Assembly (NCBI GenBank): GCA_013414765.1
Contig: CP058708.1
Span: 429,553-493,552 of the forward strand
Reading direction: 5' to 3'
Source of the DNA: Candidatus Accumulibacter cognatus
Lineage (GTDB): Bacteria > Pseudomonadota > Gammaproteobacteria > Burkholderiales > Rhodocyclaceae
DNA length: 64,000 bases
Shown: positions 1-44,565 of the stretch, piece after piece
Numbering within the stretch: the first letter of the stretch is position 1
Layout of the letters: every line of letters begins with the position of its first letter
The notes under the pieces: generated by a model
Told to the model about the DNA's origin: nothing
Seen by the model: only the letters and a program-made list of their open reading frames with translations
The model's database searches: none
Program-made: the position numbers and the translations under genes

Positions 1-979
<979 letters not shown>

Positions 980-31860: not shown

Positions 31861-33903
31861 ATGTTCCGCAGATTCCAGGTTTTGCTCGGCCACATGGCCG
31901 TTTTTGTCTTCGGTCTGTTGCCGGTTTCCCAGGCCATCGCAGCGGATTGGATGATCAACGAAGACTACTACCAAACCGATCCCCGCGCAGCCACCGATTT
32001 CGAGTTTTTACTTGCCGGTGACGTCGCAGCCCGGATTACCGGTGGCGGACAGACCTCCATCACCAACGCCTTCACCGACCCTACTCGCAGCACCAGCCTG
32101 CAACCGGGCTTCAACAACACCATCGTTCGCTTCGCCGGTTCCAACGCGATTCCCAATTCACCGACGACGAAACGGCACTTCGGCATCTACGGCACGGGCA
32201 GCAAGCCAACGGTGCTGACCAAGGCCTGGTCATTCCCCACGGCTCCGTTTCGCGTCCCGGTACCCAAGTCCAACTTCGACTTTGCCTACGATCCGCTGAA
32301 CGACGCCCTGCGGATCACGCTGGAGAATACCAGCCCATACACGGTAACTTTCCAGAACGTGGGCTACACGATCAGCTCCATCGAGTACCCCATCGACCAA
32401 CTGACGGCCAGTGGTCTGCCATTGTCGGTTTTTCAACCACTCACTGGATTCGACCACGAGTACCGGCCGGGCGAATTCAGTTCGATGCTGATCGCCCACG
32501 TTCCTCTCGAATCGTTCGCCGTCACCCATGCCACGGTTTTCTTCTCGGGCGACTCCAGCGGCATGGATTATCAAGCGACTGGCGATGAATGGGCCCAGGT
32601 TCGCGTCGCCGCCGCAGTTCCCGAACCGGGCGCCCTGTTTCTTGTGCTGATCGGCCTGGCATGCGTTGTCGGCTTCTCCCGTCGCCGATTCAATGGACTA
32701 CTCGTCCGCAACAACTCGGGCAAAGCCGCTGGCGCCTGGCTGCTGCTTGGCGTCGGCATGCTGCAGACGGGAAGTGCCGCGGCCGACGTGTTTGTCGTGC
32801 CCCTGGCCGCGCCACCTACCGCGGGTGATACGCGTCCCTTCATCGACCTGAAGGCCAAGGATACTGCCGGCAATGACATCACCATCAAGACCCTGATTGA
32901 CGGCGGCTCGACCAGTTCCGAGTTGAAAGTCACTGCCGCGGTCGGAACCCAGTTGGGCGTCAGCGGAGGAACTCCGGGAGCCGAGCGCGGGATTAACGGA
33001 GTAACGCCGACCACCACCGGAGCAAGCATTCCGGCCGGCGCCGGCGTCGGCTTCAGCAGTGCACCCGTCACCCCCGGGGGTCAGGCAGCGAGCTCGCCCC
33101 CCCTGCCCGCCACGGCCAGCGTGGGAACTCTCCCGCCCGGGCGGCAAGCCACCCTGGGTAGCGGCTATCTGGAAGCCAACTTCGACAGCAGCGGGCGACT
33201 GGATGGCTACTACTTTTTCGTGGCCAAGGGTCAGGGGGCGACGGGCGGTGTGGCAACGGCCAACGCCATCGCCAGCTTCCTGGCTTTTTCCGGGCCGGTA
33301 GCCACCAATCCCGATGGCCGTCCCAAAGGCACAAAATCCGAGGAGGTCACGCCCTTTCGCCACCCCGTGCCGCTGGGCGAGGAGGCAATCGATGGCGGCT
33401 TCCGGCTGGGCGTCGATATCAGCAGCGTTTTCTCTACGCAATCCGACATCCCCTTCATTCTCAAGAGCGGCTTTTCAAACACGGTCATTTCTTCCCCACT
33501 GGCTTTGCTGTTGGGATTGAATCCGGGCACCCTGCCGACAGCACAGGTCGAGACGAACTTTGGCACGATGGCCGTGGGGATGGCCCAACTCCAGCTCGAC
33601 CTGTTCAGCGACCCGAGCTTCCCGAGCTTCACGGTCCCGGTAGGCATCGCCTTGAACTCCGCCGACAATCCATTCGACGACAACGTGCTGGGCAGCGATG
33701 TGCTGGGTCTGCTGGCTTATTGGGACATTGATCAGACCAACCCGAGTGCGCCCATGTTTTCTGCCGCCGCCAGCCTCACGCCCGTTCCCGAGCCGGCTAC
33801 GGCGGCGCTGATCAGCGTACCAATGCTTTTCTGCCTGCTAGCCGGCGCCTGGACACGCTGCAATCGGATCCGCACAACACGCGCTCGCCGCCCCTGGAAG
33901 TAA
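31861..33903 (+). CDS. double PEP-CTERM exported protein (two exosortase substrates fused in frame)
   Basis: A 680-residue protein. Residues 1-28 are a signal peptide. The first domain (about 29-250) ends in a complete PEP-CTERM tail: VPEPG at 253-257, a hydrophobic helix, then SRRR. Directly after it comes a second signal-like helix (about 290-308, ending GSAAA) and a second domain. A second PEP-CTERM tail starts VPEP near 642 and ends with a helix and a basic cluster. PEP-CTERM tails direct proteins to exosortase for sorting to the outer surface. The second domain has the phrase TLIDGGSTSSELKV, vaguely like retropepsin folds but without the DTG triad. No exosortase gene is in the window. 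The AAAGGAG ribosome site supports the start. Confidence 0.85.
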   Translation: MFRRFQVLLGHMAVFVFGLLPVSQAIAADWMINEDYYQTDPRAATDFEFLLAGDVAARITGGGQTSITNAFTDPTRSTSLQPGFNNTIVRFAGSNAIPNSPTTKRHFGIYGTGSKPTVLTKAWSFPTAPFRVPVPKSNFDFAYDPLNDALRITLENTSPYTVTFQNVGYTISSIEYPIDQLTASGLPLSVFQPLTGFDHEYRPGEFSSMLIAHVPLESFAVTHATVFFSGDSSGMDYQATGDEWAQVRVAAAVPEPGALFLVLIGLACVVGFSRRRFNGLLVRNNSGKAAGAWLLLGVGMLQTGSAAADVFVVPLAAPPTAGDTRPFIDLKAKDTAGNDITIKTLIDGGSTSSELKVTAAVGTQLGVSGGTPGAERGINGVTPTTTGASIPAGAGVGFSSAPVTPGGQAASSPPLPATASVGTLPPGRQATLGSGYLEANFDSSGRLDGYYFFVAKGQGATGGVATANAIASFLAFSGPVATNPDGRPKGTKSEEVTPFRHPVPLGEEAIDGGFRLGVDISSVFSTQSDIPFILKSGFSNTVISSPLALLLGLNPGTLPTAQVETNFGTMAVGMAQLQLDLFSDPSFPSFTVPVGIALNSADNPFDDNVLGSDVLGLLAYWDIDQTNPSAPMFSAAASLTPVPEPATAALISVPMLFCLLAGAWTRCNRIRTTRARRPWK

Positions 33904-33972: not shown

Positions 33973-34170
33973 TGTGAAAGTCCCCGTCAGCGACTCGCGA
34001 ATCTTTCCTCCCCCACTCGCGATGGAGGGGTCGGGGGTCGAGACGGGGGGATGCACTGAGCATGCGCCATGCCCATCGAGCGATGCCGGCGTCCCAGCCG
34101 GAATGCGCCCGGCAAGGGAGGGAAACGGTCATGACTTCCCTGATCGGGGGCTGGAAAAGTCATGGCCGTT
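33973..34170 (+). repeat. three-hairpin intergenic repeat, copy D (with internal extra segment)
   Basis: Starts TGTGAAAGTCCCCGTCAGCGACTCGC (two pieces of the shared left end) and ends at GGAAAAGTCATGGCCGTT, matching the shared right end. About 70 bp of extra sequence separates the central and distal hairpins. It lies between the convergent PEP-CTERM and acylphosphatase genes; the rest of 33904-34242 has no gene. Confidence 0.75.
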
Positions 34171-34242
34171 AGCGCAGCCGCACCGGGTGATCGAGAGCAG
34201 TTGCCGGCGGCAGGCCGGCTTGTCGTGATCAGCAGGGAAGTT

Positions 34243-34536
34243 TCAGTACGTGGCAATCTGCCGGAATCCGTCCATCGAACCGATTTCGGCGGCATTGCCC
34301 TCGTTGCAGAGAACGCGGTCGACCCTGGCCATCGATGGTCCGCGCTGTGCCCAGAGCAGCAGCGCGTCAAGCGCCTCGGCCGGACCACGGACCAGCGCTT
34401 CGACGCTGCCGTCGCGACGATTGCGGACCCAGCCGGAGAGGCCGAGTCGTTCGGCCTCGGCGCACAGCGACCAGCGGTAGCCGACACCCTGGACCCGGCC
34501 ATGTATACGCAGGTTTCGGCAGATGGTCTGACTCAT
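34243..34536 (-). CDS. acylphosphatase
   Basis: A 97-residue enzyme hydrolysing acyl phosphates such as acetyl phosphate. GRVQGVGYRW (residues 13-22) carries the phosphate-binding loop with the catalytic Arg. GWVRNRRDGSVE carries the catalytic Asn. The ATG at 34536 gives the normal length; the frame is open far upstream against the next gene without support. It is divergent from the DAB-like block. Confidence 0.93.
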   Translation of the reverse strand: MSQTICRNLRIHGRVQGVGYRWSLCAEAERLGLSGWVRNRRDGSVEALVRGPAEALDALLLWAQRGPSMARVDRVLCNEGNAAEIGSMDGFRQIATY

Positions 34537-34666
34537 CTTTCGACTCCAAAATGCTGAAACTGGGGACTGGGGCCGTGCGGCCGCAGCCAATACTGGCATA
34601 ATCGTCGTCCATGAAAAGAAGAATAGCAAGGGGAGCGGCATCGCTTTCCTGGGCTCTTGTCCGGCG

Positions 34667-36139
34667 ATGCTGAAGACGCTGTTGCTGCTGCCGCTTTTGG
34701 GTGCCGCGCTGTTGTCGCTGCTACCGAGCCGCCGCTTCGATCTGCTGCGCCATCTGGCGAGCGCCATCGCTGCCGCGACGATGTTCTGTGCCGGCCTGTT
34801 GCTGCTCGACTTCGACCCTGCCAGTGCGGATATCCAGTTTTTTGAAACCCGGCCGTGGAATCCGCGCGTCGGCTCGCATTTCGCGCTCGGGGTGGACGGT
34901 ATCTCGCTGCCGATGGTGCTGCTCGCGACGGTCCTCTGTTTCGTCGCAATCTTCTCCTCGACCAGCATCCGCAGCGGCGCCAAACTTTATTTTTCGCTGT
35001 TGCTGATCCTTGAGACCTCGCTGCTGATCGTGTTTACGGCGCGCGACTGGTCGCTGTTCTACGTCTGCTGGGAGTTGACCCTGATCCCGCTGTTCTTCCT
35101 GATCGACCGCCTGGGAGGCGTCAACCGTCATCGGGCAGCGCTCAATTTTGTCCTGTATACGCTGGGGGGGTCGGTATTCATGCTGATCGCGCTGCTGTTG
35201 CTCTACGATGTCGCCCCCGGCCACAGCTTCGCGATGGTCGATTTGGCCGCCGGTGGCGCGCAGTTGCCGGTGCGTACGCAGATTCTGGTCTTTCTCGGGC
35301 TGCTGCTCGGTTTCGGGGTGAAGATGCCGATCGTTCCGCTGCATGGCTGGTTACCGCTGGCACACGTCGAGGCACCGAGTCCGATCTCGATTCTGCTCTC
35401 CGGAATCCTGCTGAAAATGGGCGCCTACGGGCTGATCCGTGCGGCCGCAACCTTGCCGGCAGCAGCACTGGCGCTGCAGGACTGGCTGGCACTGCTGGCA
35501 CTGGTCAGTCTGATCTACGGTGCGGTATTGGCCTGGCGGCAAACCGACCTGAAAGCAATGATCGCCTACTCGTCGATCTCGCATATGGGGGTCGTCCTGC
35601 TCGGCATCGCCGCTCTCAACCCGGTTGGACTCAGCGGTGCGCTGACCCAGATGGTCGCGCATGGACTGACTGCCGGGCTGCTGTTCCTGCTCATCGGTCT
35701 GCTCTACGAGCGCACGCACAGCCGTGATCTGGCGACTTACGGTTCGCTCAACCGCTGCGCACCGCGCTTCGCCGTATGGATCGTGTTCACGCTGCTGGCC
35801 TCGGTCGGCCTGCCCGGCAGCGCCGGTTTCATCGCCGAACTGCAGGTACTGATCGGCGCTTATGGCCGCTGGGGGGGCTGGCTGGTCCTGCTGTCGATCG
35901 CGGTGCTGATTTCCGCGGCCTACGCCTTGCGCGCCATTCGCTGCCTGTCAACCGGACCCGAGCGGCCTTTCGGTGCGGCGTTGGCCGGGGTGGCGCATGT
36001 CGCCGACCTCGATCGCAAGGAATGCGCGGCCGCCTGGCTGCTGGCCGGCGGCATCGTCTGGATTGGCATCCTGCCGGCACCGCTGCTGCGCCTGATGGCC
36101 ACTTCGCTGAGCAGGCTGGCCATCCCCTTCGGCGCCTGA
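34667..36139 (+). CDS. NuoM-like proton-conducting membrane subunit of the DAB-type block (first of four)
   Basis: A 490-residue polytopic protein of the complex I/Mrp antiporter family (PF00361). It keeps the proton-path residues Glu136 (CWELTLIP), Lys219 (GFGVKMPIVPLHGWLP) and Lys250 (LLKMGAYGLIR), so it looks able to move protons. There are no other NADH dehydrogenase genes nearby, so it is not part of a normal complex I. It is followed without a gap by the DabA gene, whose GTG comes directly after its TGA. I infer it powers DabA with the three other antiporter-like subunits downstream. The ATG at 34667 has only a weak ribosome site. Confidence 0.88.
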   Translation: MLKTLLLLPLLGAALLSLLPSRRFDLLRHLASAIAAATMFCAGLLLLDFDPASADIQFFETRPWNPRVGSHFALGVDGISLPMVLLATVLCFVAIFSSTSIRSGAKLYFSLLLILETSLLIVFTARDWSLFYVCWELTLIPLFFLIDRLGGVNRHRAALNFVLYTLGGSVFMLIALLLLYDVAPGHSFAMVDLAAGGAQLPVRTQILVFLGLLLGFGVKMPIVPLHGWLPLAHVEAPSPISILLSGILLKMGAYGLIRAAATLPAAALALQDWLALLALVSLIYGAVLAWRQTDLKAMIAYSSISHMGVVLLGIAALNPVGLSGALTQMVAHGLTAGLLFLLIGLLYERTHSRDLATYGSLNRCAPRFAVWIVFTLLASVGLPGSAGFIAELQVLIGAYGRWGGWLVLLSIAVLISAAYALRAIRCLSTGPERPFGAALAGVAHVADLDRKECAAAWLLAGGIVWIGILPAPLLRLMATSLSRLAIPFGA

Positions 36140-39100
36140 GTGAGTTCGCGCATGCCGTCCCCCGTCTCGCCGAAAATTGCCGCAACCATACCCGGCTTGC
36201 AGCGCATACAGGCCGACCTACGGCAACTCGCGCACCTGCTGCCGGCACAGGCCCCCTTGCGCGACTTCGTTCATCACAATACCCTGCACGCCTTCCAGGA
36301 TCTGCCGTTCGCCGAGGCGCTCGGTGAGGCTACCCGCCTGACCGGCGCACGTCCCTGGCTCGACGAGGGCCGCTGCCGAAAACTGTTCCAGGAAGGGCGG
36401 GTGAACGCGAACGATCTTGCCGCCGCCTTGCGGCAATTGCCCGACATCCGGGCCGACGAGTGGCTGCCCGATGATGCGCTGACCGGCTTACGTCGCGGCG
36501 AGATCCTGCAGGCGGTACTGCTGCAGCCGGCGGAAACCATTTCACCGACCCGCCTGCGCTGGCAAATCGAGGAAAAATCGGCATGCAAGCGCCTGCAAGC
36601 GGATCTCGATCCGCTCGTGCGGCAGCAGCTGCTGGACGCCGCCGCTGTGGACGGCCACGATGAGGCCGCGGCCGTCACCGACCTCTGGGCAGCGGCATGC
36701 GCCTTGCACGGGCCGACCGCCCGGCCCGCCGTCGCCTGCACCGAGCCCTTGGCGGTCACTGCTGCGGCGATCTGGCAGGAACTGCTCGACCGTCTCGGCT
36801 ACGAATGGACGCTTGGCGCATTGCTCGCCCATTTGACCGGTGAGGATATCCGACCGGGACTGCAGGCGGCCTTGATCCGCCATCTTGCGGCACACCTTGA
36901 TCACGGCCTGGCCGCCTGGAGGAATCCGGCGCGAGCGCAGGGCTTTTATATGGCATGGCGACAGAGTACCGGCAGCGACTGGACCTGGGAACTCGACGAA
37001 TTCGCCGGCGCTCGCCAGGACATCGAGCAGCTCGCCGACGATCCGCTGCAGGTGATCGCCAATGAACTGCAATCGTTGGGCATCGATGATTCGCGCTACA
37101 GCGCCTATCTGCAGCGACTGGCAATGGAATTGCCGGGCTGGGCCGGCATGTATCACTGGCATGAAGCGCAGGCCGGGGCCGGTGATCCGCCGGTCAGCCT
37201 GACTGATTTTCTCGCCGTGCGCGTGGTGCTCGAACGCATCCATGCCGAGCAGTGGCTGCGCCGCATCTGGGGCCTGCGGCTCGACGAACTCGGCGGCTAC
37301 TTCATCGATCATCCGGACGAGCTGGCGGTCAGACACGCGGCCGGCAATCGCCAGTTGCCGGACGACCTGCTCCACCAGGTGCGGCCGCATCTGACGGCCG
37401 AGGCAGCGCATGGCGACTGGCCGCATTTTGCCCGCCGCCTGATGGAGACGCGCATCGCCGACGCCGCAGCGACGACCGACACCGAAACACTGGCCGCCTG
37501 GCCACTGTTCGTCCTGGCACAAAGACTGGGACTGACTGGTCGCAGGCTGCGCGAAATTGGCCGATCCGGTGTGGAGGCCTTGCTGTGTTGCGCCGCTTCC
37601 CTGACTGACGACCAGCGCGGACTGCTCTGGCTGCTGGCCTACGAACATCACTATCGGCAACAAATCTTTGCAGCCTTGCACGCCAATCATGGCCGCGCTT
37701 CGTCGCTGGCCGGCAAAGCCCAGGCGCAGTGGGTTTTCTGCATGGATGACCGCGAAGAGGGCAGTCGCCGCCACCTCGAAGAGGTCAACCCGGCTTTTGA
37801 AACCTTTGGTGCCGCCGGTTTCTTCGGTACCCCGATCTTCTGGCAGGGCCTCGACGACGAGGCGCCGACAGCCCTATGTCCGATAGTCGTACGCCCGACG
37901 AATAGCGTGCGCGAGACTCTGCCACCTGGTGCCGAAGCGGCGTACCGGCGGCATCAGCAGCGCCGCCAGCTACGCCTGGCATGGCGCGAACGCCTGCATC
38001 AGGGCAGCCGGCGCGGCTGGCTGCAGGCTGCGCTGCTGAGCGTTGCTGCCGCACCCTGGGCCTTGCTCGCGCTACTGGCGCGGACGCTGGCGCCGGGACG
38101 TGTCGGAAAACTGCTTGAGCGCACTCGCGACCGCTTCGACAAGCCGCTGCCGGGCGCGCTGGAATTGACCGCGGCTCCCGGCGAAGCCGAACGGGTCGCC
38201 AGCAGTGACGCGCCACGAATCGGCTTCAGCGAAGAAGAGCAGGTGACCCGCGTCGGTGCTTTCCTGCGCAGCATCGGCCTGACAAGCCACTTCGCACCGC
38301 TGGTGCTGATCGTCGGCCATGGTTCGGACAGCCGCAACAACCCGCATCTCGCTGCCTACGATTGCGGCGCCTGTTCCGGCCGCCACGGCGGACCGAATGC
38401 ACGCGTGTTTGCGGCCATGGCCAATCGGCCAGCGCTGCGTGCACAACTCGCACGGCAGGGGATCGTCATCCCGGAGACGACGCACTTCATCGGTGTCGAA
38501 CACAACACTTGCGACGAGAGCTTCGTCTGGTACGACCTTGAGCAACTGCCGGCCAGTCATCGAGAGGCCTTTGCCACGCTGCGCAGCGACGGTCAGGAAG
38601 CGGCTAGCCGCCATGCCGTCGAGCGTTGCCGTCGTTTTGCATCGGCGCCGCTCGACCCCTCGCCGCAGCAGGCGCAGGCACACCTGGCAAACCGGCGCCA
38701 GGACATCGCGCAGGCGCGGCCCGAACTTGGGCATGCGACCGTGGCGGCGGCTTTCATCGGCCGCCGCACGATGAGCCGCGGCGCATTTTTCGATCGACGG
38801 GTGTTCCTGATTTCCTACGATCCACTGCCGGATGCCGACGGGCGCGTGCTCGAAGCGACACTGCTAGCGGCTGGCCCGGTCGGAGCCGGGATCAACCTCG
38901 AGTATTACTTTTCGACCGTCAATAACGAAGGCTATGGCTGCGGCAGCAAGATCATGCATAACCTGACCGGGCTGTTCGGGATCATGCAGGGAGCCACTTC
39001 CGACCTGCGCACCGGCCTGCCGCTGCAGATGGTCGAGATCCATGAACCGATGCGACTGCTGGTGATCGTCGAACAGACGCTGGAAATCATCAGCGCGATC

Positions 39101-39346
39101 TACCAGCGACAGCCCCCCCTGCAGGAATTGATCGGCAAGGACTGGATCGTTCTCGCCGCCAAACACCCACAGACGGGAGCCATCCATCTCTTCGCGCCGG
39201 CGACCGGCTGGCAGCCCTGGAGTCCCCAGGCACCTGGCCAGCCGGCGCCGGACGTGCCCGAGGCCGAGCGTTCGTCCGACTGGTTCGCCGGCCAGCGCGA
39301 ACCCTTGCCGCCAGCCTTGCTGCGGCGCCCGGTGGTGACGGCATGA
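36140..39346 (+). CDS. dabA: DabA-like inorganic carbon accumulation protein (DUF2309)
   Basis: A 1,068-residue cytoplasmic protein of the DabA/DUF2309 family. It is thought to convert CO2 to bicarbonate in a one-way reaction coupled to the proton gradient through a NuoL-like partner. The four metal ligands expected from characterised DabA are visible: Cys534 and Asp536 in FCMDDREE, His727 in LIVGHGSDS and Cys742 in AYDCGACSG. The His-to-Cys spacing of 15 matches. It is longer than the roughly 800-residue DabA of Halothiobacillus, mainly on the N-terminal side. GTG start directly after the upstream stop; 4 bp overlap with the next gene. Function as a carbon pump is inferred by family. Confidence 0.88.
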   Translation: MSSRMPSPVSPKIAATIPGLQRIQADLRQLAHLLPAQAPLRDFVHHNTLHAFQDLPFAEALGEATRLTGARPWLDEGRCRKLFQEGRVNANDLAAALRQLPDIRADEWLPDDALTGLRRGEILQAVLLQPAETISPTRLRWQIEEKSACKRLQADLDPLVRQQLLDAAAVDGHDEAAAVTDLWAAACALHGPTARPAVACTEPLAVTAAAIWQELLDRLGYEWTLGALLAHLTGEDIRPGLQAALIRHLAAHLDHGLAAWRNPARAQGFYMAWRQSTGSDWTWELDEFAGARQDIEQLADDPLQVIANELQSLGIDDSRYSAYLQRLAMELPGWAGMYHWHEAQAGAGDPPVSLTDFLAVRVVLERIHAEQWLRRIWGLRLDELGGYFIDHPDELAVRHAAGNRQLPDDLLHQVRPHLTAEAAHGDWPHFARRLMETRIADAAATTDTETLAAWPLFVLAQRLGLTGRRLREIGRSGVEALLCCAASLTDDQRGLLWLLAYEHHYRQQIFAALHANHGRASSLAGKAQAQWVFCMDDREEGSRRHLEEVNPAFETFGAAGFFGTPIFWQGLDDEAPTALCPIVVRPTNSVRETLPPGAEAAYRRHQQRRQLRLAWRERLHQGSRRGWLQAALLSVAAAPWALLALLARTLAPGRVGKLLERTRDRFDKPLPGALELTAAPGEAERVASSDAPRIGFSEEEQVTRVGAFLRSIGLTSHFAPLVLIVGHGSDSRNNPHLAAYDCGACSGRHGGPNARVFAAMANRPALRAQLARQGIVIPETTHFIGVEHNTCDESFVWYDLEQLPASHREAFATLRSDGQEAASRHAVERCRRFASAPLDPSPQQAQAHLANRRQDIAQARPELGHATVAAAFIGRRTMSRGAFFDRRVFLISYDPLPDADGRVLEATLLAAGPVGAGINLEYYFSTVNNEGYGCGSKIMHNLTGLFGIMQGATSDLRTGLPLQMVEIHEPMRLLVIVEQTLEIISAIYQRQPPLQELIGKDWIVLAAKHPQTGAIHLFAPATGWQPWSPQAPGQPAPDVPEAERSSDWFAGQREPLPPALLRRPVVTA

Positions 39347-40893
39347 GCACACCCGATGGACTGTTCAACCTGTTGGCCCTGGCCAGCCACCTGTTCTGGC
39401 TGGTGCCGCTGTTGCCGCTGCTGTCAGCCGCGTTGATCGCCATTCTTTTGCTCTTGCGCCGCGGCGCTGGCGATGCCGGCGAGCCGCTGACGGCCGCCAT
39501 CGCCGGCACGGCCGCGCTCGCTGCGCTGCTGCTCCTGCTGGTTTTCGATCTGCTGGCCATCGGCGGCACCCTGCCGGAACTTCTGGAGTCCGGCGAATGG
39601 CTGCGTATCGGCACAGTAGCGATTCGCCTGTCCTTCGTGGCCGACGCCTACAGCCTGCCGGCGGCGACGCTGGTTGCCCTGATCACCTGGATTGCATTAC
39701 GTTTTTCGGCCACCTATCTGCACCGGGAGGTCGCTTTCCCGCGCTTCTTTCTCGGCATGAGCCTGTTCCTTGCCGGCATCCTGCTGATCGTCCTGGCCGG
39801 CAATGCGGTGCTGACCTTCGTCGGCTGGGAACTCGCCGGTTTCAGTTCCTGGCTGCTCATCGCTTACGCTTGGGAACGACCGGTCGCGACCGGCAACGCC
39901 TTGTTCGTCTTCCTCTGCAACCGTATCGGCGATGCCGGTTTCATGCTCGGGATCGCCCTCGCCACATGGTCGGCGGGCAGCCTCGAGTGGGCCAGACTGA
40001 CCGGTGACAGCGGCCTGGCCCAAGTCACGGCGCGCCTGCTGGCGTTCGGTTTCGTTCTGGCGGCGCTGGTCAAATCGGCGCAATTGCCGTTTACGCCATG
40101 GATCGCGCGTGCGCTCGAAGGCCCGACGCCGTCTTCGGCAATCTTCTACGGTTCGCTGATGGTGCACGCCGGCGTCTATCTGCTCTGCCGCCTGCAAGGT
40201 CTGCTCGTACAGGTGCCCGACCTGCTGGCACTGCTGGCAGTCGTCGGTCTGGCGACCGCTGCGTACGGCGCGCTCTGCGCGCTGGTGCAGAGCGATGTCA
40301 AGTCGGCGCTGGTATTCTCGACCGTAACCCAGGTCGGTCTGATGGTCTGCTGCTGCGGTCTCGGACTGTTCTGGCTGGCCGCCTGCCACGCGGGCCTGCA
40401 TGCCGCCTGGCGCGCGTATCAGTTTCTGCTCGCGCCGGCGTACATGCATCTGGTAGGCCAGCCGGCGCCACCGGTGCCACCCTGGCTGGCCAGGCAACGA
40501 TGGGGGTACACCGCGGCGCTACAGCGTTTCTGGATCGAGCCTCTGGCCAACAGCCTGCTGACGCGTCCAACGCTGGCGCTCGGCAGGGACGTGCGGGCGC
40601 TCGACGAGCGTTTCATCGACCCGCTCGTCGGTGCGCCCCGCGACGATAAACGCTCTGACACCTGTGACGCGGCCGACGAACTGATCCGTGGTCATGGCTT
40701 GGCCGGTCACGCGTTGTTCAACTTCGCGAACCGCCTGCAGCGCCTGGAAAGCGCTCTGCTGCTCAGCGGCGAAGGAGCGATGGAGAAATCCCTGCGACGC
40801 GCCGCACACTACGCGGATGCCATCGAGTCGTTGCTCGAACAACCGCGCTATCTGATGTTGATGGTCATGGCAACTTTCGTGGTGATCCTGTGA
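39343..40893 (+). CDS. NuoL/DabB-like membrane subunit (second of four)
   Basis: A 516-residue polytopic protein. GWELAGFSSW holds Glu163, and LVKSAQLPFTPWI holds Lys244, the TM5 and TM7 charged residues of NuoL-type channels. After the last central helices the C-terminal part (from about 390) is hydrophilic and helical, ending in one hydrophobic helix, which resembles the lateral helix end of NuoL or DabB. The long RxxxLDERFIDPLVG segment is typical of NuoL C termini. It overlaps DabA by 4 bp (ATGA) and the next gene by 4 bp (GTGA). This is the most likely direct DabB equivalent, by position. Confidence 0.85.
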   Translation: MSTPDGLFNLLALASHLFWLVPLLPLLSAALIAILLLLRRGAGDAGEPLTAAIAGTAALAALLLLLVFDLLAIGGTLPELLESGEWLRIGTVAIRLSFVADAYSLPAATLVALITWIALRFSATYLHREVAFPRFFLGMSLFLAGILLIVLAGNAVLTFVGWELAGFSSWLLIAYAWERPVATGNALFVFLCNRIGDAGFMLGIALATWSAGSLEWARLTGDSGLAQVTARLLAFGFVLAALVKSAQLPFTPWIARALEGPTPSSAIFYGSLMVHAGVYLLCRLQGLLVQVPDLLALLAVVGLATAAYGALCALVQSDVKSALVFSTVTQVGLMVCCCGLGLFWLAACHAGLHAAWRAYQFLLAPAYMHLVGQPAPPVPPWLARQRWGYTAALQRFWIEPLANSLLTRPTLALGRDVRALDERFIDPLVGAPRDDKRSDTCDAADELIRGHGLAGHALFNFANRLQRLESALLLSGEGAMEKSLRRAAHYADAIESLLEQPRYLMLMVMATFVVIL

Positions 40894-42389
40894 GTGAAAT
40901 TCTCTGGGCCGCGCAGGCCGGCTACCCGCCGCTGGCGTCGCTCCAATGGTTGCCGCTGGCAGCGGCCCTGCTGCTGCTGATCATGCGCGAGGCCGACCTG
41001 GCGCTGGTCATCGGCCGTATCTTTACGGTCGCAGAACTGGTCGTAGCGATTGACCTGTACGCCCGCATTGACGTGTCGACCAGCGTCCTGCAGTTCGCCG
41101 AGCGCGTCGATGTGTTCGCTTACCACGCTGCGGTCGACGGGGTGAGTGTGCTGTTCATCCTGCTCACGGCGCTGCTCGGCGTACTGCTCTCTTTCTACGG
41201 CATGGCCCGCCAGCAGATCTCGCCGGTACAGCTCCTGAGCGTGCTGTTGCTGATCGAATCGTCGCAGATGACCATGCTCACGACGATGAACCTGTTGTGG
41301 TTTGCCGGCGCTTCGGCGGTACAACTGGCGCTGGTCGGCTACCTGCTCTGGCGCTGGGCTTCGGCCCGAGAGGAAAACCTGGCTCTGTCACGCTTCCTGC
41401 AGTATCAGCTCTTCGGCTGGTGCCTGTTCATGGCCGGCTCCATCGTCCTGGTCTGGAGCCACGCCGACGTCCTTGGCGGCTACTGGAGTTTCGATCTCTT
41501 CGAATTGCTGGAAACGCCACAGATCGGCAAATACCAGTCGGCGGCCTTCTATCTGCTGTTTTATGGCCTGGCGGTACGCACCCCGCTGTTCCCCCTGCAT
41601 GGCTGGCTCCCCAACTCGGCTGGCTACGGCCTGATCGCCGTGGGTCCGGTGCTGCTGCTCGGGGTCAAGGTCGGCATCTACGGCATGGCCCGCTTCCTGC
41701 TACCGCTGACCGCCGAAGCGGTGATGATATGGCAACCCTATGTCGTGGCTTTCGCCATGGTCGGTGTCTTCTTTGCCGCGAGCATGGCTTTCCGGCAGGC
41801 TAATCTGCGCCGGTTGATGGCCTTTGCGGTCGTCAGCCATACCAGTCTGATCGTGATTGGCCTGTTTACACTGCATCCGGCCGGCCTGCAGGGCGCGCTG
41901 CTGCTGGCCGTCAACTTCGGTCTGGCGATTACGGTGATGCTGTTGATGGTCGGTTACGTGTACCGCCGTACCGGCACCACACATCTCGATCGGCTCGGCG
42001 GTCTCTTCGATCGCGTTCCCTTCATCGCCCTTGCCTTCCTGATCGGCGGCCTGGCGCTGCTCGGCATGCCCGGAACGCCCGGGTTCGACGCCGTGCACCT
42101 GGTTCTGGAAGCATCGATCGAGACCTTTGGCGCCTTGCCGACCATCGCCACGGCACTCGGCAACGTCGCTGCCGCCGGTTTCCTGCTGTGGGCTTTCCAG
42201 CGCGCCTTTCTCGCGCCGCGACCCAGGGATTTGCCGGCAGCCCGCATCGCTCGCACCGGCAAGATGGAGTATTTCGTCGGCGGCGCCACCCTGCTGGTGC
42301 TGCTGGCAGCCGGTTTCTACCCCGAGCCCTGGCTGCAGTTGACCGACACGGCAACGCAGGCGCTGTCGGCCCATTTCCACCATGATTGA
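40890..42389 (+). CDS. NuoM/NuoN-like membrane subunit with degenerate proton path (third of four)
   Basis: A 499-residue polytopic protein with the antiporter-family fold (PLFPLHGWLP at 232-241 and VKVGIYGMARF at 259-269). The WEL motif that carries the essential TM5 Glu reads FAGASAV (138-144), so the Glu is gone. The TM7 Lys is Arg230 (LAVRTPLFPL). Lys260 of TM8 is retained. The subunit may be structural, or a channel with a changed mechanism. GTG start overlapping the previous stop; 8 bp overlap with the next gene. Confidence 0.85.
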   Translation: MSEILWAAQAGYPPLASLQWLPLAAALLLLIMREADLALVIGRIFTVAELVVAIDLYARIDVSTSVLQFAERVDVFAYHAAVDGVSVLFILLTALLGVLLSFYGMARQQISPVQLLSVLLLIESSQMTMLTTMNLLWFAGASAVQLALVGYLLWRWASAREENLALSRFLQYQLFGWCLFMAGSIVLVWSHADVLGGYWSFDLFELLETPQIGKYQSAAFYLLFYGLAVRTPLFPLHGWLPNSAGYGLIAVGPVLLLGVKVGIYGMARFLLPLTAEAVMIWQPYVVAFAMVGVFFAASMAFRQANLRRLMAFAVVSHTSLIVIGLFTLHPAGLQGALLLAVNFGLAITVMLLMVGYVYRRTGTTHLDRLGGLFDRVPFIALAFLIGGLALLGMPGTPGFDAVHLVLEASIETFGALPTIATALGNVAAAGFLLWAFQRAFLAPRPRDLPAARIARTGKMEYFVGGATLLVLLAAGFYPEPWLQLTDTATQALSAHFHHD

Positions 42390-43884
42390 ACTAGCGTCCT
42401 GGCCGCTGCTGAGTACGCTGCTGTCGATGCCGCTGCTTGGCGCGCTGTTGGCCTCGCTGTGGCCGCGCAAGGTTGGTGCGCAGTGGATTGCGCTCGGCAG
42501 CGCGGTGCTGACGCTGCTCTGCTCGCTGCTGATCGTCGCCGCCTTCGATACCCAGGACTCCGACTTCCAGTTGCTGGATTCGGTGAGCTGGATCCCGGGA
42601 GTCAACATCCACTATCTGGTCGGCGTCGATGGCCTCTCGCTGCTCTTTCTGCCGGCGACGGCGCTGCTCTTCTGCGGTGCGGTGGTCGCCGGCTGGCGGC
42701 GGCATGCGCCGGCTGCGGACGCCGCCCCCCCCGGCGTGTACTTCGCCCTGCTGCTGCTGCTCGAAGCCGCCACCCTCGGGGTCTTCTGCGCACTCGACAG
42801 CATCCTGTTCTTCTGCTTCTGGGAGTTCACGCTGCTGCCGCTGTACTTCCTGGTCAGCCTGTGGGGCCTGGGCGCCGGCCGCCAGGCGGCCGCCGTACGT
42901 TATTTTCTGGTCATGCTCGCGGGCGGCGTGCCGCTGCTGTTTGGCATCCTGGTGCTGGCTTTCGGGCATGCCGAACTGAGCGGCGTGCTGCACTTCGATC
43001 TGCCAACGCTGCTGGGGACAGCGCTGCCTGAGCGGACCCAGTATCTGGTGTTCCTGCTGCTGCTCGCCGGTTTTGGCGTCAAGGTGCCGCTGCTACCGCT
43101 ACATACCTGGCTACCCGCACTGGCGATGGGTGCGCCGGCGGCGGTGACGGCCGTGCTGGTCGGGCTCAAACTTGGCGCCTACGGGCTGATCCGCTTCGCC
43201 ATTCCGCTGGCACCGCTCGCGGCGCGCGAGCTGCACTGGCTGCTCGCCGGTTGCGGTACCGTGGCCATCCTCTACGGTAGCGTTGCGGCGCTGGCGCAGA
43301 GCAATCTGCGCGCCGTACTGGCGTACGCGAGCCTGTCGCATGTCGGGTTGGTCGTGCTGGGGCTGGCATCGTTCTCGGTTTCGGCGCTGCAGGGAGCGCT
43401 ACTGCAACTACTGAACTTCAGTGTCGCCGCCGGCGGCGGCTTCCTGGTCCTTGCTTTCCTGCAGCGCCGGAGCGACTCGACCGACATCAGCCAGCTCGGT
43501 GGCGTGATCCACCGCATGCCACTCCTGTCCGGTTTCTTCCTGCTCTTCGGACTGGCCGGCATCGGTCTGCCGGGGACCAGTGGCTTCCCCGGTGAACTGC
43601 TGATCATCGTCGAAACGCTGCACAGCCATACCGGCGCCGGCCTCGCCGCGCTGTTCGCCATGGTGCTCGCTGCCGCAGCCTTCCTGTCTCCGTTTCGGCA
43701 AGCCTTTCTCGGTCCCTTGCGCAATCCCGACCTCGCCACCGCCGATGACCTGCTGCCGCGCGAGCTGGTCTTGCTGCTCTTGCCAACCCTGTTGATTCTG
43801 GCGGTCGGTTTCTATCCGCTGCCGATCCTCGAACTGCTGCGACCGAGCGCCGAGGCCTGGGTGGCGGCGCTCGCCGGACTGTAG
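42382..43884 (+). CDS. NuoM-like membrane subunit (fourth of four)
   Basis: A 500-residue polytopic protein. The proton-path residues are present: Glu148 (FCFWEFTLLPLYFL), Lys234 (FGVKVPLLPLHTWLP) and Lys263 (LKLGAYGLIRF). It is the closest in this block to classical NuoM. It overlaps the previous gene by 8 bp (ATGATTGA) and closes the overlapping five-gene unit. It is followed by about 270 bp of intergenic sequence with a repeat copy before the DUF4332 gene. Confidence 0.88.
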   Translation: MIELASWPLLSTLLSMPLLGALLASLWPRKVGAQWIALGSAVLTLLCSLLIVAAFDTQDSDFQLLDSVSWIPGVNIHYLVGVDGLSLLFLPATALLFCGAVVAGWRRHAPAADAAPPGVYFALLLLLEAATLGVFCALDSILFFCFWEFTLLPLYFLVSLWGLGAGRQAAAVRYFLVMLAGGVPLLFGILVLAFGHAELSGVLHFDLPTLLGTALPERTQYLVFLLLLAGFGVKVPLLPLHTWLPALAMGAPAAVTAVLVGLKLGAYGLIRFAIPLAPLAARELHWLLAGCGTVAILYGSVAALAQSNLRAVLAYASLSHVGLVVLGLASFSVSALQGALLQLLNFSVAAGGGFLVLAFLQRRSDSTDISQLGGVIHRMPLLSGFFLLFGLAGIGLPGTSGFPGELLIIVETLHSHTGAGLAALFAMVLAAAAFLSPFRQAFLGPLRNPDLATADDLLPRELVLLLLPTLLILAVGFYPLPILELLRPSAEAWVAALAGL

Positions 43885-44066: not shown

Positions 44067-44157
44067 AAATTGTCTCTGCCGAAGACCTGCTTGACCTGGA
44101 AATTCAGGCAACATGCAAGCTTCGCTTCAGCCCACCACACCAGAGGAGAAAACCGAA

Positions 44158-44565
44158 ATGACCGTCTCAGTAAAGGACTTGCAGGGAAGCACCCCTGAGC
44201 TGATCGAAAAGCTCAAGGCAAATGGAATCATCAATAATGAACAGCTTCTCGCGGCAGCCGCTGCGCCGGCACAGAGAAAAGTCCTCGCCAGCGCCTGCGG
44301 TTGTGATGCCCGTGTCATCCTTGAGCTCGCCAACCGGGCCGATCTGGCCCGCATCAAGGGCGTCTCCGGAGTCTATTCGGACCTGCTCGAGAAAGCCGGC
44401 GTCGATACGGTCAAGGAACTGGCAACCCGCCGCGCCGACAATCTGCATGCGAAGATTGTGGAGACCAACGCCAGCCATCAGATCACCAAGCAAGCACCTT
44501 CCCTGGCCATGGTTGAGTCCTGGGTGCAGCAGGCGAAGGAACTGCCCAAAACCCTGAGCTACTGA
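44158..44565 (+). CDS. DUF4332 domain protein (helix-hairpin-helix-like)
   Basis: A 135-residue soluble protein. Two helix-hairpin-helix-like repeats (about 10-60 and 62-110) with the pattern LANRADLARIKGVSGVYS and LLEKAGVDTVKELATR resemble DUF4332. The function of this family is not established. The ATG at 44158 is preceded by GAGGAGA. It lies downstream of the DAB-like block in the same direction, separated by a repeat. A link to that system is possible but rests on position only. Confidence 0.78.
   Translation: MTVSVKDLQGSTPELIEKLKANGIINNEQLLAAAAAPAQRKVLASACGCDARVILELANRADLARIKGVSGVYSDLLEKAGVDTVKELATRRADNLHAKIVETNASHQITKQAPSLAMVESWVQQAKELPKTLSY

Follow-up and report, generated by a model that had tools for sequence, protein, structure and literature searches.

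A conserved five-gene DabA unit in Candidatus Accumulibacter cognatus and its relatives, a candidate ion-driven CO2-hydrating membrane complex

A 64,000-nucleotide stretch of the genome of Candidatus Accumulibacter cognatus (contig CP058708.1, positions 429,553 to 493,552; hereafter the window) carries five consecutive genes encoding DabA, the zinc subunit of the DAB inorganic-carbon systems, and four antiporter-like membrane subunits, one of the NuoL/DabB type (L) and three of the NuoM type (M1, M2 and M3). The five genes probably specify a single membrane complex of the DAB kind, which would convert CO2 to bicarbonate in one direction only, owing to its coupling with downhill ion movement. 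According to this view, hydration would take place in the cytoplasm, and the inward flow of protons (or sodium) would render it irreversible. DabA, bearing the zinc site, would sit on L; L would be joined to M2, which lacks the pumping residues and would serve as a linker; M1 and M3, as complete NuoM-type ion-translocating subunits, would supply the driving ion flow. The ion path would have moved from the channel formed by DabB and the DabA finger to M1 and M3.

The genes lie on the same strand and abut or overlap (Table 1), as an earlier note made from the sequence alone had described. The GTG start of dabA abuts the stop codon of M1 (gap 0), and overlaps of 4, 4 and 8 bases are found at the dabA/L, L/M2 and M2/M3 junctions, respectively. 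The Pfam family matches of all five proteins are far beyond chance. M2 is a weaker NuoM type, and barely exceeds the 263.8-bit cut-off of the NCBIfam model TIGR01972. The genome is a single contig of 5.17 Mb and has one DabA; its other PF00361 genes are nuoLMN, about 0.32 Mb off, and an mrp set about 3.2 Mb along the contig. A Pfam scan of 20 open reading frames (ORFs; 5 core, 15 flanking) from 28217 to 50081 detected neither a redox arm nor NuoH/J/K-type subunits, and the reported absence of other complex I genes nearby holds for these flanks. The small Mrp subunits MnhB, C, E, F and G are also missing among the 15 flanking ORFs, the MrpA- and MrpD-like genes being sited elsewhere in the genome. 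Within the scanned stretch the distinguishing traits of both complex I/NDH-1 (redox arm with NuoH/J/K-type subunits) and Mrp antiporters (small subunits with MrpA/D) are absent.

Table 1. Coordinates in the window of the five genes and of the DabA finger
Feature	Coordinates	Strand	Evidence
M1, NuoM-type antiporter-like subunit, 490 amino acids	34667..36139	+	PF00361 2.9e-69, 234 bits; TIGR01972 463.6 bits
DabA, beta-carbonic-anhydrase-like zinc subunit, 1068 amino acids	36140..39346	+	PF10070 6.3e-236, 786 bits
DabA finger, second helix, residues 623-650, without acidic residue	38006..38089	+	AlphaFold model and alignment column 933
L, NuoL/DabB-type subunit, 516 amino acids	39343..40893	+	PF00361 (119 bits) and PF00662
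M2, NuoM-type subunit, 499 amino acids	40890..42389	+	PF00361 2.3e-32, 113 bits; TIGR01972 274 bits
M3, NuoM-type subunit, 500 amino acids	42382..43884	+	PF00361 6.4e-55, 187 bits; TIGR01972 424 bits

DabA matches were found in 23 of 25 genomes of the genus, counting that of the window, and in 4 of the 16 genomes surveyed from elsewhere in the order; identity to the DabAs of named Candidatus Accumulibacter relatives ranges from 65 to 92%. A scan with the DabA protein found 153 named loci, the best 80 of which were taken. The set of extended-type loci, drawn from named and further genomes, numbers 93, four being second copies of genomes already in the set. The exact order M1-DabA-L-M2-M3 on one strand occurs in 76 of the 93. 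Hosts include Accumulibacter, Azonexus, Dechloromonas, other Rhodocyclaceae, Methylobacter, Nitrotoga, Magnetococcales, Leucothrix and Thiotrichaceae. The earlier note had surmised that such sets may exist in other genomes, and had proposed a survey of gene order around DUF2309 and a phylogeny of the four subunits as checks; the survey bears the surmise out in several lineages. Among the remaining 17 loci ten are apparently cut by contig ends, and overlapping ORF calls account for two (L097, L192). The last five are peculiar: L055 is a broken copy, L123 has an extra DabA, L077 may be an indel fusion, L204 is a true fusion, and the set of L220 is scattered. In a class-wide sample DabA is present in 83 of 369 genomes; its neighbourhood was examined in 57 of the 83, and counts of types are lower bounds. 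The five-gene type occurs in at least 14 genomes (cut by contig ends in G091, G359 and G273, scattered in G369), a type with fused subunits in at least two (G108 and G239). Other inspected loci are mainly DAB2-like (DabB, then a DabA of about 850 residues) or DAB1-like (DabB, about 750 bases, then a DabA of about 1040 residues), with odd DabA loci in G065, G110 and G114.

The exceptions to the common order are informative about the unity of the set. In G369 the genes are scattered over three places (M1-DabA, L, and M2-M3). In G108 and G239, which belong to one genus, DabA lies with an L-M2 fusion, while M1 and M3 stand alone elsewhere. All parts are kept in the three genomes, and the fusion protein has 1045 residues in both G108 and G239, which are separate assemblies. 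The apparent L-M2 fusion of locus L077 was not counted, since the M3 of that locus is broken too, and one indel would suffice to explain the joined frame. The retention of all five parts when scattered, and the L-M2 fusion, make it very likely that the five proteins work as one complex, in keeping with the functional unit built on DabA that had been suggested for the window.

Phylogenies (quick trees, without bootstrap) are in line with a common history. Extended DabAs form one clade (SH-aLRT, the Shimodaira-Hasegawa-like approximate likelihood ratio test, 99; two odd DabAs included), which lies beside the Planctomycete-type group, and L, M1, M2 and M3 each form one clade (99, 100, 99 and 99, respectively). 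L falls on the NuoL/DabB side, grouping with DabB1, DabB2 and NuoL. The three M types fall on the NuoM side, M2 (with the Planctomycete M) and M3 being closest to each other, and M1 and M3 are apart from the long-branched MrpA and MrpD. In the trees of all five proteins (DabA, L, M1, M2, M3) Nitrotoga clusters with Methylobacter, as expected if the unit had been passed on whole.

DabA retains the zinc site of the family. Aligned to DabA2 of the cryo-electron microscopy entry 9rd0, residues C534, D536, R538, H727 and C742 correspond to C351, D353, R355, H524 and C539, respectively. In DAB2 zinc is held by two cysteines, one histidine and a water molecule, and Asp353 is no ligand, but pairs with Arg355 (PMC13144422). 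Cys534, Asp536, His727 and Cys742, previously listed as four metal ligands, are thus all present, but Asp536 is an arginine partner, and the ligands are three. Zinc site and Asp-Arg pair are conserved in 28/28 extended-type DabAs, window included. The finger is instead altered. In the AlphaFold model (md08fb3c1995b) its helices span residues 599-622 and 627-650, and the position of DabA2 Glu444 (alignment column 933) is taken by Val635. Leaving out two long-branch rows, this column holds Glu in all DAB2-type (12/12) and DAB1-type (9/9) DabAs, no acid in 22/28 extended and 6/6 Planctomycete-type ones. In DAB2 the finger with Glu444 and the later DabB helices form the probable outer half-channel, and changes E444A or E444Q abolish activity (PMC13144422). 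A fold search with the DabA model gave a best E of 0.14, and no DAB2 chain is found among the 50 matches listed of 111.

The other part of that half-channel is missing as well. By hydropathy, the stretch from residue 356 to residue 496 of L contains no hydrophobic helix. Downstream of transmembrane helix 11 (TM11), 100 of the 101 extended and Planctomycete-type L subunits (the exception being a fusion) have 0-2 hydrophobic segments, versus 3-6 in 45/45 canonical DabBs. The AlphaFold model of L (mean predicted local distance difference test score, pLDDT, 81; 41 sequences) has confident helices up to residue 371, a helix at 395-429 and a poorly predicted tail; its fold search is topped by NuoL/ND5-type chains, mostly over about 350-370 columns. 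With the later helices of L gone and no acid at this place in its DabA finger, the set of the window thus has neither component of the outer half-channel of DAB2. In E. coli NuoL/NuoM numbering, used for the conserved residues of the antiporter-like subunits, E144 and K229 are found in 89/89 L sequences, and K342 is replaced by R in 89/89. Position 144 holds I, V or A in canonical DabBs (6/6), and H or F in DAB1-type DabBs (5/5); DAB2 has Ile151 there, and substituting it with Glu halves growth (PMC13144422). By analogy with NuoM docking on NuoL, Glu144 of L would fit a neighbour docked on that face.

The residues of the proton path are unequally kept among the M subunits. M1 retains E144, K234 and K265 in 91/91 sequences and E407 in 90/91; M3 retains the first three in 81/81, and E407 in the 79/79 that are readable (2/81 gapped). 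M2 has lost E144 in 84/84, replaced K234 by R in 84/84 and E407 by A or V in 84/84, and kept K265 in 84/84; the M2 of the window has A, R and V at positions 144, 234 and 407. In 82/84 M2 sequences, by pattern (two unmatched), Asp occupies the second position ahead of the lost E407 and His the position that follows it; the His is also present in 21/21 aligned sequences. Of the four membrane subunits only M1 and M3 retain the full pumping signature. The multi-channel pump imagined in the earlier note survives in part: M1 and M3 are plausible channels, but the four-channel version is rejected on the residue losses of M2 and on the helix and residue evidence from L.

A role in inorganic-carbon metabolism, also foreseen from the window, is suggested by neighbouring genes. 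Some SulP proteins transport bicarbonate (BicA), others sulfate. A SulP-like gene (assigned by BLAST cluster, with three representatives checked by Pfam) lies near 35 of the 93 loci, in several lineages and at varying positions; none is seen among the scanned flanks of the window. Beta-carbonic-anhydrase-like matches are found near five loci, the one in Nitrotoga, on the opposite strand before M1, being confirmed by Pfam. In G108 the immediate neighbours of the lone M3 are a bestrophin-like gene (before) and a beta-carbonic anhydrase gene (after), and in G239 the order is bestrophin-like gene, lone M3, an ORF of 208 codons and beta-carbonic anhydrase gene. The occurrence of SulP or beta-carbonic anhydrase genes nearby in several lineages makes inorganic carbon the likely substrate. 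In the class sample 13 of 14 genomes with the five-gene type encode RuBisCO, versus 187 of all 369 (one-sided p 0.0009, not corrected for kinship); the excess is weaker with the fusion genomes included (13/16, p 0.011). In the genome of the window a RuBisCO gene lies about 29 kb downstream of M3.

Several observations weigh against the proposed complex, in whole or in part. RuBisCO is encoded in only 9 of 21 named genomes (9/17 with five genes, 0/4 with DabA-L-M loci), and is absent from all four Methylobacter genomes, from the only Leucothrix and the only Magnetococcales genome tested, and from two of six Azonexus/Dechloromonas/Rhodocyclaceae genomes; the system is not tied to RuBisCO, and the link is only partial. 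A beta-carbonic anhydrase is encoded in the genome of the window. The glutamate that DabA has lost from the finger is essential in DAB2, and the protein could work differently; moreover, the loss of the acid is not universal, an Asp being found at that column in 6/28 extended DabAs. Planctomycetes, Wallbacteria and similar bacteria have DabA-L-M loci with no M1 or M3 beside them. According to calculation, one proton entering at 150-180 mV would already drive the reaction about 10^2.5 to 10^3 over equilibrium, and such ample trapping power leaves little reason for two conducting subunits except at a low gradient. Finally, the earlier note knew of no functional test of the enlarged form, and no functional, proteomic or structural test of a five-gene system was found in searches of an open-access library, prior description outside it being possible.

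The rival that best withstands the evidence is that protons cross L and DabA as in DAB2, M1, M2 and M3 being structural or regulatory, non-conducting passengers. The zinc site is intact, R175, D178, K229, K305 and H338 are each retained in at least 88 of the 89 L sequences, and the Planctomycete, Wallbacteria and similar loci, with DabA, L and one degenerate M, apparently manage without M1 and M3. Yet L lacks the post-TM11 helices that the canonical DabBs examined have kept, the finger acid is mostly gone, and the pumping residues of M1 and M3 are kept in all lineages sampled; we regard the hypothesis as unlikely. Sodium-coupled bicarbonate uptake like that of MpsAB, with M1 and M3 working as subunits of the Na+/H+ antiporter type, is somewhat less probable still, and partly overlaps with the proposed complex, for which the ion is left open. 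M1 and M3 also give sub-threshold matches to Mrp subunit D models, and the relative MpsAB is argued to be Na+ driven (PMC13144422). Against this stand the placement of M1 and M3, which fall with the NuoM types and not with the long-branch MrpA and MrpD, and the sodium independence of DAB2 itself (PMC13144422).

A reverse machine, in which an exergonic reaction at DabA would drive outward pumping by several subunits (PMC5700660), is very unlikely. Two complete pump subunits and the analogy to complex I speak for it, but the zinc site is of the type of CO2-hydrating subunits, and CO2 hydration yields about 7-15 kJ/mol (68-157 mV per CO2) under the three conditions computed. This is too little for one proton at 180 mV, let alone several, and an outward pump driven by hydration is rejected on energy. 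Lastly, a two-subunit DAB standing beside an unrelated antiporter set, for which no positive evidence was found, can hardly be squared with the conserved order, the retention of scattered parts and the L-M2 fusion in two genomes.

The proposed complex shares the defining traits of the DAB family, the Cys2His zinc site with the Asp-Arg pair and a NuoL-type partner adjoining dabA. It shares with DAB2/DAC (DabA2-DabB2 of Halothiobacillus neapolitanus, PDB 9rd0) the two-helix finger too, here seen in a model. In contrast to DAB2, it has three additional NuoM-type subunits, L is encoded after DabA (DabB comes first in the DAB2-like loci examined), Glu144 stands where DabB2 has Ile151, and neither the acidic finger residue nor a DabB of about 15 helices, with the later ones rearranged around the finger, is found in the window. 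DAB1 (DabA1, small membrane protein, DabB1) has a similarly large DabA, of about 1040-1060 residues, and is nearer than DAB2 in the DabA tree; yet, the one DabB of DAB1-type loci has 14-15 hydrophobic segments (in the two tested), the finger Glu is conserved, and no NuoM-type genes were seen within the unit. The DabA and the L of the Planctomycete/Wallbacteria DabA-L-M loci are sister clades of those of the five-gene type. Their L, mostly of about 464 residues, likewise lacks the later helices, and the single M-type subunit seen beside DabA has no E144 (5/5), and R or H at position 234.

The nearest working parallel is the cyanobacterial NDH-1MS. There CupA is mounted on NdhF3, whose lateral channel has non-polar residues, and pumping is ascribed to NdhD3 and NdhB (PMC6981117). 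A CO2-hydrating zinc subunit on a NuoL-type subunit, beside NuoM-type pump subunits, is common to NDH-1MS and the proposed complex, but NDH-1MS has a redox arm, and CupA is of unrelated fold (PMC6981117); no redox subunits are seen in the scanned flanks of the five-gene unit, which on our best reading resembles an NDH-1MS minus the redox arm. It may even represent a distinct class of ion-driven CO2-hydrating machine, in which the DAB2 channel has been dismantled, an inactivated M2 serves as linker, and M1 and M3 drive hydration with more than one ion per CO2, though this stronger claim is tentative and on present evidence rather doubtful. If it were true, a complex I membrane arm would be driven by a chemical reaction at the tip rather than by a redox arm, geared for trapping CO2 at low gradient; several inward ions pay off only in that situation. 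How antiporter-like subunits pass force along the arm of complex I is a long-standing question, for which the five-gene type offers a series without the redox arm, leading from NuoL to DabB with rearranged later helices, and to L which has lost them. One, two or four antiporter-like subunits, one of them inactivated, are similarly found beside the same zinc enzyme, and, if the complex works as proposed, the ion/CO2 ratio would be measurable against subunit number in a growth assay. Active inorganic-carbon trapping would also extend to the phosphorus-storing genus Accumulibacter, to Azonexus/Dechloromonas and to Methylobacter, for which no report of it was found in the open-access library searched.

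The gene set as such has a precedent. The earlier note held that known DAB systems consist of one DabA and one DabB. This is incomplete: DAB1 has a third, small membrane protein (PMC13144422), and operons with NuoM were described in 2017, when the COGNAT paper reported ybcC/DUF2309 genes upstream of a nuoL homologue, with NuoM and SulP genes (PMC5700660). The authors guessed that extra membrane subunits move more ions, and proposed outward pumping (PMC5700660). Their clade C (COG3002, COG1009, COG1008 and COG0659) agrees in order and families, and is very probably the same gene set or an overlapping one (PMC5700660). A five-gene definition, residue analysis, carbon function or test was not found in the text on clade C (PMC5700660). 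The 2017 description removes most of the novelty from the gene set; no earlier report of the residue, helix, fusion and co-retention findings was met in the literature examined.

Additional DabA and antiporter-like genes deserve mention. Two DabA relatives fall in the extended clade: L123:1072-4329, which lies upstream of a five-gene set and is encoded on the other strand, and L231:8008-11241, which has no antiporter-like gene within its stretch. In G021 an intact set is accompanied by short remnants of DabA and L (L042:1420-1955), at a distance of about 7 kb from its M3 and 12 kb from its DabA; they are perhaps a decayed second copy. Some Accumulibacter genomes have a further antiporter-like gene 2-4 kb ahead of M1 (L041:1413-2870, L044:14682-16220, L046:1880-3208, L052:2362-3690); those of L041 and L046 group with HyfF, and none is seen in the window. 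Locus L182:73-12781 (G065:C1:74000-93000) carries on one strand a SulP gene, a DabA of 950 residues with the finger Asp, MnhE, MbhD/E, MnhB, an Oxidored_q2 (MnhC-like) gene and three antiporter-like subunits; apparently, DabA has been built into an Mrp/MBH-like operon, a second enlarged architecture distinct from the five-gene one. A search of 84 other genomes of the order found no close relative of it, the matches in 12 of them being at most 45% identical.

As to the surroundings of the unit, the DUF4332 gene at 44113-44565 was discarded as a sixth member, since none of the 102 other loci searched has a match to it at E 1e-10. An ORF of 131 codons directly upstream of M1 (34162-34557) and a minus-strand ORF overlying it both look like spurious high-GC frames and are not counted as genes; they are kept within the genus, in 13 and 10 loci, respectively, and neither has a Pfam match. 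Promoter and terminator scans gave nothing above shuffled expectation. Farther upstream, a frame of 680 codons (31861-33903) has two PEP-CTERM-like endings, one around residue 276, the only one detected by Pfam, and one near the end. It resembles two sorted proteins fused, and comparable long frames are found in L057, L061 and L062 (L057 and L062 being one genome). The left end of the window (1-979) holds a 16S rRNA gene on the minus strand, cut by the window edge.

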